In this document: positions 27,529-40,795 of the stretch, one piece after another
Position numbering within the stretch: position 1 is the first letter of the stretch
How the letters are laid out: every line of letters starts with the position of its first letter
Origin: Caldifarciminota bacterium
Lineage (GTDB): Bacteria > Hydrothermota > Hydrothermia > LBFQ01
Direction of reading: 5' to 3'
DNA length: 47,665 nucleotides
Assembly: GCA_027002825.1 (NCBI GenBank)
Contig: JALWZG010000072.1
Location: 1-47,665, forward strand
Made by a program: the position numbers and the translations under genes
The notes under the pieces: model-generated
Databases searched by the model: none
What the model was told of the DNA's origin: nothing
The model's input: only the letters and a program-made list of their open reading frames with translations

Positions 27529-29097
27529 TTAACGTGTGGAGGTCTTTTCCTCCGCTATGTCCAGGTTCCTGACCCTTTCCCTTGGGATCCTCGCCCTGCT
27601 CACCTGGGCGCAACCGAGAAACATGTAGTCCATGTCCCACTCCCTGTGGGCATCCGTTCCGAGGATCACCTTCCCCCTGTAGCCGCCCTCCAGAAGGGCG
27701 TAGGCGTCAAGGTCCACCCTTTTGGGGTTGGCGTTTATCTCAAGGGCTTTCCCCGTCTCCTCTGCCATTCTCATCACCTTTTCAAGGTTCACGCGGTAGG
27801 AGGGTCTTTTCTTCAGGACCCTCCCCGTGGGATGTCCTATGGCGTCCACAAAAGGGTTTTCCAAGGCCTTAAGTATCCTGGCCGTGATGTCCTCATCCTC
27901 TCCCCAAGAATGAACGGACGCTATGACGAGGTCAAAAACCTTTAAAACCTCGTCCGGGTAGTCAAGCGAGCCGTCGGGGAGTATGTCCACCTCCGTAGCG
28001 AACAGTATGCGCACGTAAGGGTACTTCTCGCGCAGCTTGAGTATCTCGTAGAACTTCCTCTCAAGCCTCACGAGGTTCAGGCCACCGGCTTTTGAGGACG
28101 GGGAGTGATCCGCGAGGGCGATGGCGGTGTATCCCCTCTTTATGGCCGCCTGAACGGCCTCTTCCGCCGTCATGCTCCCGTCGGAGTAGGTGGTGTGAAC
28201 GTGCATGTCCCCCGGAACGTTCTCCGGGAGGAGTGGAGGGGGAAGCTCTCCCCTTGCGGCGAGGGCGATCTCACCACCGTCAAACCTCTGATAGGGGTGT
28301 ACGTAGGGTAGGCCGGCCCTCGCGTATATATCCTCCTCGCTCTCCCCCTTTATATCCACCAGTTCGCCAAGGGCTCGCACGTGGGCCTCCGGCCCCGTGG
28401 CGTACAGGAGAACACTGCCCAGGTCATCCGGCGTGTATATGTGGACGTGTATGGGTATCCTCTCGTCCGCCCACATCCACCAGCCGTCCCTGTACCTTCC
28501 CGATATGGCCAGCCTGAAGGCATCCTCTTCCGAGAGGAGGAAATCAAAGCGGGATACGATAGGCTCTCCCCTCCTGTACTCACCGGCGGCTATGGCCGAG
28601 GGGTACTCCTTCAGGAAGGCCTTGACCACAAGTCTCGCCTCGGGAAACGTGAAGAGTTCCCTTTGCAACAGGTAGAACTTTACACTCCCGTACACCCTTT
28701 CCGGACTTTTGAACACATCGCCCGCTTTACCGCTTTCAAGGAACTTGAGGAGGTCGTCATAGGTTTTTATGCCGAGTCTGAAGAGGTGTTGGGCCGTGCT
28801 TACGCCTATACCCCTGACGTTTATAAAATCGGGTGTATCTCCGAACTCCGACAGGGCCTCCTCGTACTCCCGCAACCTACCCGTTTCCAGAAACTCCTTT
28901 ATTTTCAAGAGGAAGGACCTGTCCACGTTGAGGAGTTCTTCCAGCTCCCCGTACAGCTCCGATACGTCCTCCGGGAGGCCGAGAAGTACCTTTGAAAGGT
29001 GCTTGTAGACGCTGCACCTCCTCTTCGGATTTCCACGCAGCAGACACGTCGTGTAGAGGTAGGAGAAGATCTTGGAGAGCCTGTAGTTGTTCTCCAA
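27529..29097 (-). CDS. polX: PolX-like protein with degenerate polymerase site and intact PHP domain
   Basis: A 522-aa member of the bacterial PolX architecture: an N-terminal helix-hairpin-helix region (about 30-140, NVRGIGVSTAQHLFRLGI), a family X polymerase core (about 150-260) and a C-terminal PHP phosphoesterase (about 295-500). In PolX the core has GDxD; here the aligned stretch is RRGEPIVSRFDFLL, so the first catalytic Asp is Arg183 and only Asp185 remains. The third Asp (VDLRVV in the family) is replaced in IHVHIYTP. The PHP metal residues look complete (DMHVHTTYSDG, ALADHS, ATEVDI, ASVHS, GTDAH). It is therefore probably a nuclease or phosphatase without polymerase activity. The start TTG follows the STAS gene stop by 2 nt. 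Confidence 0.88.
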   Translation of the reverse strand: MENNYRLSKIFSYLYTTCLLRGNPKRRCSVYKHLSKVLLGLPEDVSELYGELEELLNVDRSFLLKIKEFLETGRLREYEEALSEFGDTPDFINVRGIGVSTAQHLFRLGIKTYDDLLKFLESGKAGDVFKSPERVYGSVKFYLLQRELFTFPEARLVVKAFLKEYPSAIAAGEYRRGEPIVSRFDFLLSEEDAFRLAISGRYRDGWWMWADERIPIHVHIYTPDDLGSVLLYATGPEAHVRALGELVDIKGESEEDIYARAGLPYVHPYQRFDGGEIALAARGELPPPLLPENVPGDMHVHTTYSDGSMTAEEAVQAAIKRGYTAIALADHSPSSKAGGLNLVRLERKFYEILKLREKYPYVRILFATEVDILPDGSLDYPDEVLKVFDLVIASVHSWGEDEDITARILKALENPFVDAIGHPTGRVLKKRPSYRVNLEKVMRMAEETGKALEINANPKRVDLDAYALLEGGYRGKVILGTDAHREWDMDYMFLGCAQVSRARIPRERVRNLDIAEEKTSTR

Positions 29098-29099
29098 CT

Positions 29100-29459
29100 C
29101 TACCCTTCCCCCTTCAGGGACTTGATGGCCTCGTAGACGTCGGAGTAGGTCTTGAACACCTTGTCAAAGGCCATGATCTTGTAAATCTTGAGGGTTTTGT
29201 CCTTCAGGCCACAGGTTATGATGTCCCCGCCTATCTCCCGCGCGTGCTTCAGGACGGTTATCAGGGCGCCCCATATGGCCGAGGATATGTACGTGGCCTC
29301 CGAGAAGTCTATCACGAAATACCTGACCCCGTCGGCCAGCTTGTCGTCAAAGAAGACGATAAGAGGCTCTCTCATCGCCGTGTCCAGCTCGCCTATGAAC
29401 CTGACTATACCTATGTCCCCGTCTCTGCGGAATTTGACCACTTCCCCTATGTTGCGCAT
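29100..29459 (-). CDS. STAS domain protein (anti-sigma factor antagonist type)
   Basis: A 119-aa STAS protein like SpoIIAA/RsbV. It shows the core strand VRYFVIDFSEATYISS with Ser59/Ser60 at the position phosphorylated by the partner anti-sigma kinase, followed by the helix AIWGALITVLKHAREIGG. No anti-sigma kinase, phosphatase or sigma factor is coded in the window. It starts the unit that continues into the PolX-like gene. TAGAAT ends 6 nt before the ATG. Confidence 0.9.
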   Translation of the reverse strand: MRNIGEVVKFRRDGDIGIVRFIGELDTAMREPLIVFFDDKLADGVRYFVIDFSEATYISSAIWGALITVLKHAREIGGDIITCGLKDKTLKIYKIMAFDKVFKTYSDVYEAIKSLKGEG

Positions 29460-29506: not shown

Positions 29507-30865
29507 ATGTTAAAACAGCTCCTCTACGATCTCGCCGAAGGGGTTTTGAGGATCTCCAACGCCGAACAGACGGTGGTGTTGGTCAAAGGTGAGAGGTCAA
29601 GGCTTGTAAGGTTTGCCAATTCACGTGTGCATCAGAACACAGAGGTCAGAAACGTCTCCATCAGCGTTCACGTCCGGTTTGGAAACAGGGCCGCCACGGC
29701 CGAGAGCAACGCCATAAACTCCCCGGAGGACATAGCAAGCCTTGTGAGGAAGGCCGAAGAGATGGCCAAAATCTCACCGGAAAATCCGGAGCTCTTGGAG
29801 GTGCCCAAATCCGGAAAACTGGAAACCTCACCCGACACGTTTGACGAACTGACGGCCGAGGCGGATCCGTCCCACCTCATAGATATGGCCACCCGCCTGA
29901 TAAAGGGAACCCCCAAGCCCTTTGAGGCTTTCGGGACGATCTCCGGCGGAGCGGACGAGATGGTAGTCCTGACCTCGGAGGGGTTTGAGGGGTACAGGGG
30001 TGTGACGGCGGCGCACGTCAAGTACAACCCCATACACGACCTTACACACGGTTATCTCGTCCAGAAATCCGGTCACACGTTCAGGGACTTTGACGTTGAG
30101 CTTATACTCCAGCGCGCTCAGGACAGGCTTTCCTTCGTTTTAAACCCGGCCGAACCCCAACCGGGCAAATGGACGGTCATCCTTGAACCCCTTGCCGTCG
30201 CCGAGCTTTTGGGTTTCCTCAACTGGATGGGCCTCTCGGCCAGGTCGGTTCTGGACGGAATATCACCCCTTGGCGAAAAGCTGGGAAAGGGGATCTTTTC
30301 GGAAAGGTTTACACTTTACGACGATCCCCTCAACCCCAGGGGGTACCCCTTCCCGTTTGACGCGGAGGGGAGGAAGAAGGGGCTTACAACCGTGGTTGAA
30401 AGGGGTGTCCTTAAAAACCTCGCCCATGACAGCATCACGGCCAAGAGGCTGGGTACAAAGTCCAACGCCTGCGCCACTACGCTTCAGGCGAGCAGGCCCA
30501 TGTTCCTCAACCTCAGGCTGAAGGAAGGTGATGAGGGGTACGGGGAGATCTTGAACGGGAGTGAGAGGGCGTTACTCGTGACGAGGTTCTGGTACACCAA
30601 CATCGTAAACCCAAGGGACCTGAGCATCACGGGTATGACGAGGGATGGACTGTTTTTGGTTGAGGACGGTAGGATAGTGGGGAGTGTCAAGAACATGCGT
30701 TTCAACGTAAGCCTGTTTGACGTCTTCTCCAACGTCGTTTCCGTCTCCAAGGAAAGCGAACCTGTTGGGGATTCCACCTGGTACGGCCCTTTCATCGCCA
30801 TAGGTGCGATCGTTCCCACGCTCAAAGTGGAAGGGTTCAACTTTTCATCGTCAACCCTGTTCTGA
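29507..30865 (+). CDS. TldE/PmbA-like metallopeptidase-family protein
   Basis: A 452-aa member of the TldD/PmbA family (PF01523 and C-terminal domain PF19289). TldD-TldE heterodimers cleave peptides, and in some systems process modified peptides such as microcin B17. The zinc motif HExxxH of the catalytic TldD subunit is not seen, so this is the TldE/PmbA type; no TldD is coded in the window. Recognisable stretches are SNAINSPEDIASLVRKAEEM (about 63-82) and FWYTNIVNPRDLSITGMTRD (about 365-384). The start is fixed at 29507 by its -10 box. It is followed, with a 1-nt stop/start overlap (TGATG), by the repeat protein, so the two are coexpressed. Confidence 0.88.
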   Translation: MLKQLLYDLAEGVLRISNAEQTVVLVKGERSRLVRFANSRVHQNTEVRNVSISVHVRFGNRAATAESNAINSPEDIASLVRKAEEMAKISPENPELLEVPKSGKLETSPDTFDELTAEADPSHLIDMATRLIKGTPKPFEAFGTISGGADEMVVLTSEGFEGYRGVTAAHVKYNPIHDLTHGYLVQKSGHTFRDFDVELILQRAQDRLSFVLNPAEPQPGKWTVILEPLAVAELLGFLNWMGLSARSVLDGISPLGEKLGKGIFSERFTLYDDPLNPRGYPFPFDAEGRKKGLTTVVERGVLKNLAHDSITAKRLGTKSNACATTLQASRPMFLNLRLKEGDEGYGEILNGSERALLVTRFWYTNIVNPRDLSITGMTRDGLFLVEDGRIVGSVKNMRFNVSLFDVFSNVVSVSKESEPVGDSTWYGPFIAIGAIVPTLKVEGFNFSSSTLF

Positions 30866-32502
30866 TGTGGTTCTTCCCCTTTTTGGACAGTCTCTTGGCC
30901 TACGGGGGACTCTCAAGGGTTGACCTCACCTTTGAAAAGGATCTGTCAACCCGAACGCTCTTCAAACCCCAACCCGTTCTCCGCTACCTATCCGATCCCC
31001 TCTCCCTGATGGTTTGGGCATCGGACGGTGGAAAGTACGTCACCGTTAAACCCGAAAGCCTACCCGCGACCTTTTGGCCCGTCAGGTACAGAAAGGTCAG
31101 AATGCGCACCCGCTTTACCGTAAGGGACAGCACGATCAAGAGGATCGTTGAGACCCTCTACTGTGTGGATTACTTTGAGGGTAGGGCTTTTCTGAGGGTT
31201 GGCAGGAGGAGGGATACGTTGAGGGAGAGGTTGAAGCGAGCCTGGGACCCGAGCGCACCGGACGGTGATTCGTTGACGTTTGCGGAGGTGCGTCTCGCCG
31301 TGGACTCCGTCGATTACAACCTCCTCCTCAACGCCTTCGGCTGCCTCTTAAACCTGGACACCTCACTCGTCCCCCGAATGGAGGGGGATTTTCAGTACGA
31401 GTACATAACGGGCTTTGGAAAGGTAGCCGTCGGGGGAACTGGAAGCAACACCTACAGGGGAAGGTACGCGGCCATTTACGACTTCGGAGGGGATGACTCC
31501 TACTTCCTCGAGAGCTCCCCCACGCTGATAGTGGACCTCGGGGGGAACGATAGGTATTGGGGGGAGTTCGCGTCGGGCATCGTGGGTGTTTCCGCCCTTT
31601 ACGACCTCGCCGGGAACGATGTGTACGAGTGTGATGGCGTTTGCGCCGGTGTGGGTCTCATGGGGTTCGGTCTACTTTACGATAGGAGTGGGGACGATTA
31701 CTACTCCGCCGGCTACCACTCCCTCGGCGCCGGCACCTTTGGAGGGGGCTATCTTATGGACAGGGAGGGGAACGATGTGTACAAAGGTGTAATATACGGC
31801 CAGGGGTTTGCCGGGACATACGGAGTGGGTATTCTTTCGGACTCTTCCGGGAACGACGTGTACGCCCTCGGATACGGCCCAATACACGCCCCCCTGTTCA
31901 AAACCCAGCACCAGTCCTTGGGGCAGGGCTTTTCCATAGGCTGGAGGGACAGGTTCGGAGGAGGTGTGGGGGTCCTGGCGGACGGTTCCGGAAACGACCA
32001 TTACCTCGCAGGCACGTACGCCCAAGGCGTCTCCTATTGGTACGCCCTGGGTTTGCTTTACGATGGGGGCGGAGATGACAGGTACATATGCGCTGAGTAC
32101 TGTCAGGGGGCCGGGATACACGTTTCCGTGGGGGCGTTGGTGGATAAATCGGGTGATGACCTCTACTACGCCATGTTCGGTCCGAGCATAGGTGAGGGAC
32201 ACGACTTCTCGGTCGGCTTCTTTTACGATTCAACGGGGAACGATACGTACTACACCAGCGGTGGTTTCGGGGTCGGGCTTACCAACTCCGTCGGAATATT
32301 CGTGGACGGCGGAGGGAAGGACAACTACTCGGCTCGTGAGAAGGAGATCTCCTTCGGAGGGGCGAACGAGAAGCGGGAGATGGGAGGTATAGGTGTGTTT
32401 CTGGACCTCGGAGGTGAAAGGGACACCTACCCCATGCTCTTCCACACGAAAAACGGACACCTATGGGTCAGACCCAAATGGGGACTCGGATGGGACAGGT
32501 AG
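30865..32502 (+). CDS. Repeat protein with 11 DxxGxDxY units
   Basis: A 545-aa protein of unknown function. The N-terminal part (about 1-200) is not recognised. From about 206 to 488 there are 11 copies of D-x-x-G-x-D-x-Y, at 206, 224, 247, 273, 299, 326, 373, 400, 427, 455 and 481. Most are 26-28 residues apart, separated by Gly-rich stretches such as GQGFAGTYGVGILSD. The Asp/Gly/Asn content resembles calcium-binding beta-roll repeats, but the period is three times the nine residues of RTX. A beta-solenoid is likely by inference. The leader MWFFPFLDSLLA is short. The gene sits between the TldE-like and HPr-kinase-like genes. Confidence 0.85.
   Translation: MWFFPFLDSLLAYGGLSRVDLTFEKDLSTRTLFKPQPVLRYLSDPLSLMVWASDGGKYVTVKPESLPATFWPVRYRKVRMRTRFTVRDSTIKRIVETLYCVDYFEGRAFLRVGRRRDTLRERLKRAWDPSAPDGDSLTFAEVRLAVDSVDYNLLLNAFGCLLNLDTSLVPRMEGDFQYEYITGFGKVAVGGTGSNTYRGRYAAIYDFGGDDSYFLESSPTLIVDLGGNDRYWGEFASGIVGVSALYDLAGNDVYECDGVCAGVGLMGFGLLYDRSGDDYYSAGYHSLGAGTFGGGYLMDREGNDVYKGVIYGQGFAGTYGVGILSDSSGNDVYALGYGPIHAPLFKTQHQSLGQGFSIGWRDRFGGGVGVLADGSGNDHYLAGTYAQGVSYWYALGLLYDGGGDDRYICAEYCQGAGIHVSVGALVDKSGDDLYYAMFGPSIGEGHDFSVGFFYDSTGNDTYYTSGGFGVGLTNSVGIFVDGGGKDNYSAREKEISFGGANEKREMGGIGVFLDLGGERDTYPMLFHTKNGHLWVRPKWGLGWDR
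31480..32328 (+). repeat. DxxGxDxY repeat array within the coding sequence
   Basis: This is the coding stretch of the 11 repeat units (residues 206-488). Unit spacings are 18, 23, 26, 26, 27, 47, 27, 27, 28 and 26 residues; the 47-residue gap holds an insertion (ALGYGPIHAPLFKTQHQS). Each unit has an acidic turn followed by an aromatic, then a Gly-rich segment with alternating hydrophobics. Confidence 0.85.
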
Positions 32503-39675: not shown

Positions 39676-39724
39676 GGTGGAAATCCGACCCAAAAGGTAA
39701 GGATTTGGAAAGAGGCTTTCCACC
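39676..39724. promoter_or_regulatory. Inverted repeat between the SufT and butyrate kinase promoters
   Basis: GGTGGAAA at 39676-39683 and TTTCCACC at 39717-39724 form an 8-bp inverted repeat spanning the divergent intergenic region. Each arm sits directly upstream of a -10 box, so both promoters carry the same TTTCCACC element. It could be a basal promoter part or a symmetric operator. Confidence 0.5.
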
Positions 39725-39725
39725 G

Positions 39726-39731
39726 TAAAAT
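39726..39731 (+). promoter_or_regulatory. Leaderless -10 box of butyrate kinase
   Basis: TAAAAT preceded by TTTCCACCG. It ends only 5 nt before the GTG at 39737, the closest spacing in the window. Confidence 0.6.
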
Positions 39732-39736
39732 CCCCC

Positions 39737-40795
39737 GTGTTCAGGATACTGGTCATAAACACCGGGTCCTCCTCCACAAAGGTTGCGCTTTACAACTCGG
39801 AGGAGGAGGTGTGGAAGGAGGTGGTGCGTCACACCTACGATGAGCTGAAGGACTTAAGGGACACGAAATCCCATCTGGACTTCCGTGAGGAGGTGGTGGA
39901 GGGTGTTTTAAGGAGGAGGGGAGTGGATGGGGTGGACGCGATAGCGGCCATCGGAGGGTTGTTGAAACCGCTTGAGAGCGGGGTTTATGAGATCGATACC
40001 GAAATGGTTTTGGACCTCTACGAGGGTAAAAGGGGGTTCCACGCCTCAAACCTTGCCGGGATCATCGCACACAAGCTCGCCCAGAGGTACGGCGTCAAGG
40101 CCTACACGGTTGACCCCATAAGCGTTGATGAGATGGGGAGGTTGGCGAGGTATTCGGGGCATCCGCTCCTGCCGCGCTACAGCCTATCCCACGCCTTGAA
40201 CACCAAGGCCGTGGCGAGGAGATGGTCAAGGGAGAACGGAAAGAGGTACGAGGAGGTGAATTTGATAGTCGTACACATGGGAAGTGGGATAACCGTTTCC
40301 GCCCACGAGAGGGGTAGAATGGTGGACCTCACAAACTCCATGGAGGAGGGGCCGTTCTCCGTTGAGAGGACGGGAAGTTTACCCGTTATGAGTCTCGCCC
40401 GGATGTGTTTCTCCGGGGAACACACCTTTGATGAGGTGGAAAGGATGATATTCGGGGAGGGTGGTGTTTACGCCTATTTGGGTGAGAAGGACTTCCGGAA
40501 AGTTATGGAGCGGGTTAGGGGTGGTGATGGAAGGGCCAAAGAGGTGGTGGATGCTATGCTCTACCAAATAGCAAAGGAGACGGGGGGTATGGCGGCCGTC
40601 CTCTCCGGAGATGTGGATGCCGTAATAATAACGGGGGGGATGGCCTACGAGGATTACGTGGTCGATGGACTGAGACGCCGTCTATCCTTCATAGCGCCCG
40701 TACACGTCTACCCCGGTGAGGACGAGATGGAAGCCCTCGCCTCAGGTGTGCTGAGGGTTTTAAGGGGGGAGGAGGATGCCAAGAGATACGGATAG
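39737..40795 (+). CDS. buk: Butyrate kinase / branched-chain acid kinase
   Basis: A 352-aa acetokinase-family (ASKHA) enzyme that interconverts butyryl-phosphate and butyrate with ADP/ATP. It shows the N-terminal phosphate loop NTGSSSTKVA (8-17) and the motifs NLIVVHMGSGITVSAH and DVDAVIITGGMAYE near the nucleotide site. Length fits butyrate kinase rather than acetate kinase (about 400). No phosphotransbutyrylase follows, so the acyl substrate could be isobutyrate or another branched acid. The start is GTG with the -10 box 5 nt upstream. It overlaps the next gene by 20 nt. Confidence 0.9.
   Translation: MFRILVINTGSSSTKVALYNSEEEVWKEVVRHTYDELKDLRDTKSHLDFREEVVEGVLRRRGVDGVDAIAAIGGLLKPLESGVYEIDTEMVLDLYEGKRGFHASNLAGIIAHKLAQRYGVKAYTVDPISVDEMGRLARYSGHPLLPRYSLSHALNTKAVARRWSRENGKRYEEVNLIVVHMGSGITVSAHERGRMVDLTNSMEEGPFSVERTGSLPVMSLARMCFSGEHTFDEVERMIFGEGGVYAYLGEKDFRKVMERVRGGDGRAKEVVDAMLYQIAKETGGMAAVLSGDVDAVIITGGMAYEDYVVDGLRRRLSFIAPVHVYPGEDEMEALASGVLRVLRGEEDAKRYG

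Follow-up and report, generated by a model that had tools for sequence, protein, structure and literature searches.

The locus lies in a window of 47,665 nucleotides, i.e. the whole stretch of DNA that was analyzed, from a Caldifarciminota bacterium (GenBank assembly GCA_027002825.1, contig JALWZG010000072.1). The genome is a 1.7-Mb draft, 85.75% complete, and Candidatus Caldipriscus sp. T1.2 (WOR-3/Caldipriscota), from a lineage known from hot springs, is its closest named relative. Two genes, a small STAS-domain gene and a gene of the PolX family, follow each other on the minus strand:

29100..29459, minus strand: SpoIIAA/RsbV-like STAS-domain protein of 119 aa (Pfam STAS 2.1e-14), first gene of the pair
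29103..29114, minus strand: AAGGGGGAAGGG, probable ribosome-binding site of the polX gene, predicted inside the STAS frame
27529..29097, minus strand: polX gene, noncanonical by sequence (ncPolX), 522 aa, with a TTG start 2 nt past the STAS stop
28618..29097, minus strand: 8-kDa and thumb part (residues 1-160), HhH2 retained
28363..28617, minus strand: degenerate palm and shortened fingers (residues 161-245), from length comparison with the phylum's canonical PolX
28549..28551, minus strand: codon of R183, aligned to catalytic Asp 1 of canonical PolX
28543..28545, minus strand: codon of D185, aligned to catalytic Asp 2 (retained)
28447..28449, minus strand: codon of H217, at catalytic Asp 3 of canonical PolX, within IPIHVHIYTP
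27559..28230, minus strand: PHP domain (residues about 290-513) with the HHHEHHEDH ligands and DNA-path residues

Elsewhere in the window, the list of open reading frames includes a 545-aa repeat protein (30865-32502) with many DxxGxDxY-like motifs such as DFGGDDSYF and DLGGNDRYW.

Among solved structures, the best full-length match of the 522-aa protein is PolX of T. thermophilus (3b0y; phmmer 1.9e-59, residues 4-512). Pfam recognizes the PHP domain (6.3e-13), part of the Pol-beta thumb family and, weakly, HhH_8 and the fingers; the palm domain was not detected in this search. The AlphaFold model, built from 37 sequences, has a mean pLDDT of 94.7 and a TM of 0.86 to T. thermophilus PolX 3au6, and a viral structure library returned ordinary PolX/PHP matches only. 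The protein is probably thermostable.

In alignments with 3b0y and relatives, the catalytic triad, which is D-D-D in Thermus PolX, reads R183-D185-H217: the Thermus segments VGDLDF and QVDLRVV align to VSRFDF and IPIHVHI. The original prediction, made from the letters of the window, had assigned Arg183 to the first catalytic Asp, seen the third one lost in IHVHIYTP, and named Asp185 as the sole remaining acid; comparison with characterized PolX proteins bears out all three assignments. Displacement of the aspartates by an indel was considered and rejected, as no acid occupies site 1 or site 3. Flanking sequence fixes the position of both motifs: GxxRR precedes the first, and the RIP-x-x-HIY strand holds the second. 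The palm indels fall between them, bringing no Asp into register. Acids 1 and 3 are lost in all eight orthologs, with R/V/M/I/A at site 1 and H/R/K at site 3, and site 2 is always D or E (RDH in the window; VER, MDR, VER, VER, IEK, IER and AEK in the others). The acid kept at position 2 makes some metal binding by the palm possible.

The polymerase site had been called ruined on the strength of the triad loss; this holds, but the damage is wider. From GxxRR to the third site, the palm spans 48 residues versus 59-63 in the phylum's canonical PolX, and the fingers 33 versus 50. The canonical dNTP motif YFTGSKxHN (YFTGSKQHN) has become YATGPEAHV, with GS changed to GP, K to E and N to V; hence nothing is left of the GS cis-peptide pair, of the basic contact or of the Asn. 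Across the family, the position of the base-contacting Asn holds V/I/L. Furthermore, the thumb has lost HhH3 (GFGP) by deletion in 8/8 orthologs, and HhH1 is degenerate in the window copy, which has an intact HhH2.

Noncanonical PolX proteins were described in 2022 (Prostova et al.) and account for about a quarter of prokaryotic PolX (PMC9226535). Because the substituted triad, the short palm, the altered dNTP motif and the short fingers, which are the four published sequence characters of this class (PMC9226535), are all present, the window protein is, by its sequence, an ncPolX. The acidic triad that canonical template-dependent PolX requires is absent, and we infer that polymerase activity has been lost. 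As ncPolX is a recognized class, a dead polymerase with a live PHP domain is not new in itself. The Deinococcus members (D. radiodurans, 2w9m, triad AEE; D. gobiensis, triad ARE) have no polymerase activity and a strong Mn-dependent 3'-5' exonuclease (PMC9226535). They have in common with the window protein the substituted triad, the shortened palm, the altered dNTP site, the intact HHHEHHEDH PHP site and the five-domain layout; their fingers comprise 49 residues versus 33, and the family here differs in its STAS gene partner and in that no Ku was found in its genomes. In Bacteroidota and relatives (loci L164-L175, L181, L093, L116), the triad variants include RER, GDR, LEK and KEQ; most of these proteins have fingers of 33-37 residues, like the 33 of the window protein, and palms mostly of 52-60 residues versus 48, which is also the length in L116. 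Unlike in the window, the stretches read around these loci show no STAS gene close by. Canonical PolX (T. thermophilus 3b0y/3au6; the paralog of the window's genome, G000:C74:9350-11017) is a full-length homolog with the same PHP site, but has the DDD triad, full palm and fingers, YFTGSKxHN and three HhH motifs. The PolX-like PHP proteins of Actinobacteria (PMC12926913) are likewise PolX-derived PHP nucleases without polymerase function; in these, the polymerase region is wholly absent, whereas the window protein keeps the palm fold.

The PHP domain was said to retain all its metal-binding motifs, and indeed the nine ligands (H299, H301, H331, E369, H396, H422, E453, D482 and H484) are present; the set HHHEHHEDH is invariant in the eight orthologs. 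The domain also contains the DNA-path residues R426, R431, N455, R460, R501 and W398. On a map based on ligand spacing, the first five correspond to Arg469, Arg474, Asn498, Arg503 and Lys545 of the electropositive path in B. subtilis PolX, which the nuclease of that enzyme needs (PMC6616362). Furthermore, the domain clusters with other PolX PHP domains. These features suggest that the protein acts as a DNA nuclease through PHP. The proposal that it is a nuclease or phosphatase only thus stands in part: the nuclease fits Deinococcus biochemistry (PMC9226535), while AP-endonuclease, 3'-phosphodiesterase and a possible lyase are further candidates, so that the restriction to these two activities stays a prediction.

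Three other readings of the protein compete with this one. It might still polymerize with a rearranged site, a neighboring acid replacing the lost Asp: D185 (or Glu) is retained in 8/8, the third site has acids close by (D211/E212 and D224/D225), and an earlier study ascribed polymerase activity to D. radiodurans ncPolX (discussed in PMC9226535). That activity was, however, not reproduced (PMC9226535), and the always basic third site, the replaced GS pair, the lost dNTP and base contacts and the shortened palm and fingers make this reading highly improbable. Somewhat less remote, though still unlikely, is a PHP domain acting on a substrate other than DNA (RNA, or a small molecule as a phosphatase), with the polymerase remnant as a scaffold. 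PHP domains do include histidinol phosphatase and other enzymes of small substrates (ncbifam matches), and the weakening of HhH1 and loss of HhH3 would agree with it, but the grouping with PolX PHP domains, the retained DNA-path residues and the intact HhH2 argue for DNA. Least credible of all is a decaying, functionless duplicate. Such a gene would explain the fast evolution, with 1.9 changes per column on the long branch that precedes the clade, and the several deletions; yet the gene is kept in all eight genomes of the family and the PHP ligands are invariant. In the close pair G002/G005, dN/dS is 0.068 overall, 0.055 for PHP and 0.056 for palm and fingers, the latter a rough value because the region is short; more distant members were set aside owing to saturated synonymous sites. 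The ratio indicates strong purifying selection in every domain, the degenerate palm included, so that ncPolX is not decaying, and together with the retention in 8/8 genomes it led us to reject a pseudogene. The 8-kDa/thumb part changes fastest and the PHP domain slowest. The preferred reading is an ncPolX with a probably active PHP nuclease.

The phyletic distribution of this clade is narrow. It is present in 8/8 genomes of one Caldipriscus-like WOR-3 family (f1, G000-G007, of which G000 is the window's own) and absent from the other 139 of the 147 phylum genomes searched (match better than 1e-90); the sister family f2 (G008-G011) contains canonical DDD PolX only. Intact canonical PolX accompanies ncPolX beyond doubt in four genomes (the window's own, G001, G002 and G005) and, less certainly, in G003; the G004 copy is a mere fragment at the end of a contig, and G006 and G007 (57% complete) yielded none. 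Coexistence of both types in one genome has been reported before (PMC9226535).

The origin of the clade is less clear from the trees. It sits on its long branch among canonical PolX in a tree of 104 rows, in a starred set with the phylum's PolX in one of 69 rows, and, weakly supported, next to rows of the phylum and a small number of other canonical ones when PHP alone is used. In these topologies, the family falls outside the main Bacteroidota/Deinococcus ncPolX cluster. The AU test rejects neither a union with this cluster (p 0.33) nor one with the family's own canonical PolX (p 0.24); between horizontal gain and duplication of the own PolX, the trees lean strongly to neither. The canonical copy of the window's genome (L002:1492-3193, contig C74) is 92.4-92.6% DNA-identical to those of G002/G005 (L041/L042), and this identity spans exactly the gene, with unrelated flanks; the other loci compared are about 70-76% identical. 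This looks like a recent transfer or relocation, or else a misbinned contig.

Substituted triads also occur elsewhere among PolX proteins. NDD/NSD triads with full-length palm and fingers are found in Dadabacteria (L060, L064, L077, L079, L087), and DDQ triads, likewise with full-length palm and fingers, in Chloroflexota (L085, L089, L090, L092, L095, L097, L111, L112, L115, L118, L120, L122); both look like separate, younger losses. A Bacillota protein (L073) with an RDH triad falls outside the main ncPolX cluster.

The STAS gene was regarded as an unusual neighbor, and this proved correct: it lies directly upstream of ncPolX in 7/8 family genomes, with a gap of 0-3 nt in all seven, and the pair spans two genera. 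Within 9-15 kb around the pair, none of the other window neighbors is shared at this place in the other genomes; hence STAS and ncPolX have been kept together against a scrambled background. The second gene of the pair begins with TTG or GTG immediately after the STAS stop, which suggests translational coupling. A STAS profile, which recovers all polX-type STAS with the polX-linked rows held out, finds none near about 130 other PolX loci (1.5-4 kb flanks; some duplicates, and the ncPolX locus of G007, included), and our literature search found no report that joins PolX with a STAS domain. This pairing is the only new part of the finding, and it is real and conserved. In the exceptional genome, G007, the polX-type STAS gene adjoins another STAS gene (L195:4345-5263), hinting that the partner of polX came from a tandem STAS array. 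A butyrate-kinase-like gene (buk) precedes the pair in G002, G004 and G005 (L033:8068-9138, L034:8235-9305, L035:3182-4252), so that the unit is not always repair-like; the window has such a gene at 39701-40792, about 10 kb from the pair and on the other strand.

Whether the STAS neighbor matters for an otherwise ordinary ncPolX, or is a mere co-transcribed bystander, is evenly balanced in our judgment. Unrelated genes are often paired in bacterial operons, the two genes are apart in G007, and buk joins the pair in three genomes; in one bacterial family, the adjacency could be inherited co-transcription without interaction. Against a bystander speak the constant spacing in two genera amid scrambled surroundings and the start codons that point to coupled translation.

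The candidate phospho-Ser of the window STAS lies within YISSAIWGAL, and all eight polX-type STAS proteins, that of G007 included, have a Ser in this column, which, from the DSSG motif, is that of SpoIIAA Ser58. The residues that follow are off the usual pattern (ISSAIWG versus VSSSGWG). As in an RsbV/SpoIIAA antagonist, a STAS fold is combined with a phosphorylatable Ser. The window's genome also contains a tandem STAS pair at another locus and, on contig C88, an RsbW-like kinase gene (G000:C88:37318-37695) directly beside that of a SpoIIE-type phosphatase with HAMP and a Cache-like sensor (L193:2771-4795), which would together make up a complete partner-switch pair. This neighborhood makes partner-switch control of a repair exonuclease plausible. 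The RsbV/SpoIIAA-RsbW-SpoIIE switch offers the parallel of a phosphorylatable Ser column and of adjacent kinase and phosphatase genes in the genome; the window locus differs in having no sigma or anti-sigma gene, the next gene being a nuclease. The suggested link to stress signalling, which draws on the gene pairing and the presence of kinase and phosphatase genes, is speculative, and so is any physical or regulatory link between STAS and PolX. A more specific version, in which kinase and phosphatase signals set the phosphorylation of STAS, and STAS binds the degenerate palm and fingers of the polymerase-dead exonuclease, controls or recruits it and switches 3'-end trimming on or off under stress, we regard as unlikely; the family does retain RRGEP, TGPxxH and RIPxxxHIY as remnant motifs of that surface.

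Taken together, we consider it likely that the gene encodes an ncPolX that has lost synthesis and works as a PHP 3'-end nuclease beside normal PolX, in a unit with a STAS protein that is a probable partner-switch component. The PHP domain would act as a metal(Mn)-dependent 3'-5' exonuclease on DNA 3' ends and probably also as an AP-endonuclease and 3'-phosphatase; the HhH-containing 8-kDa/thumb part and the remnant palm would serve DNA binding and structural support. Presumably translated as the second gene behind STAS, ncPolX would complement the normal PolX of the same species. The STAS protein, most likely a partner-switch component on which the RsbW-like kinase and the SpoIIE-type phosphatase act, would be made together with the nuclease and perhaps control or recruit it. 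A role in DNA repair is likely, and the trimming, at high temperature, of AP sites and damaged 3' ends would fit better than end joining. A link to NHEJ, which has been proposed for other ncPolX, was rejected here, since no Ku gene was found in 13 genomes of the lineage. The Endo IV-type family is present in all 13. Exo_endo_phos (PF03372) has no match in the f1 genomes G000-G007 and one in each f2 genome (G008-G011); as it is also missing in another member of the class, it is uninformative about AP-endonuclease compensation.

These results extend ncPolX to WOR-3 (Caldipriscota), possibly by a separate loss of the polymerase. They bear on the puzzle of why a protein that uses only its nuclease should retain a polymerase fold: a compact, heavily reduced ncPolX, with coexisting canonical PolX and a fixed signalling-type partner, makes the role of the palm remnant testable, and the pairing does the same for partner-switch control of such repair nucleases.
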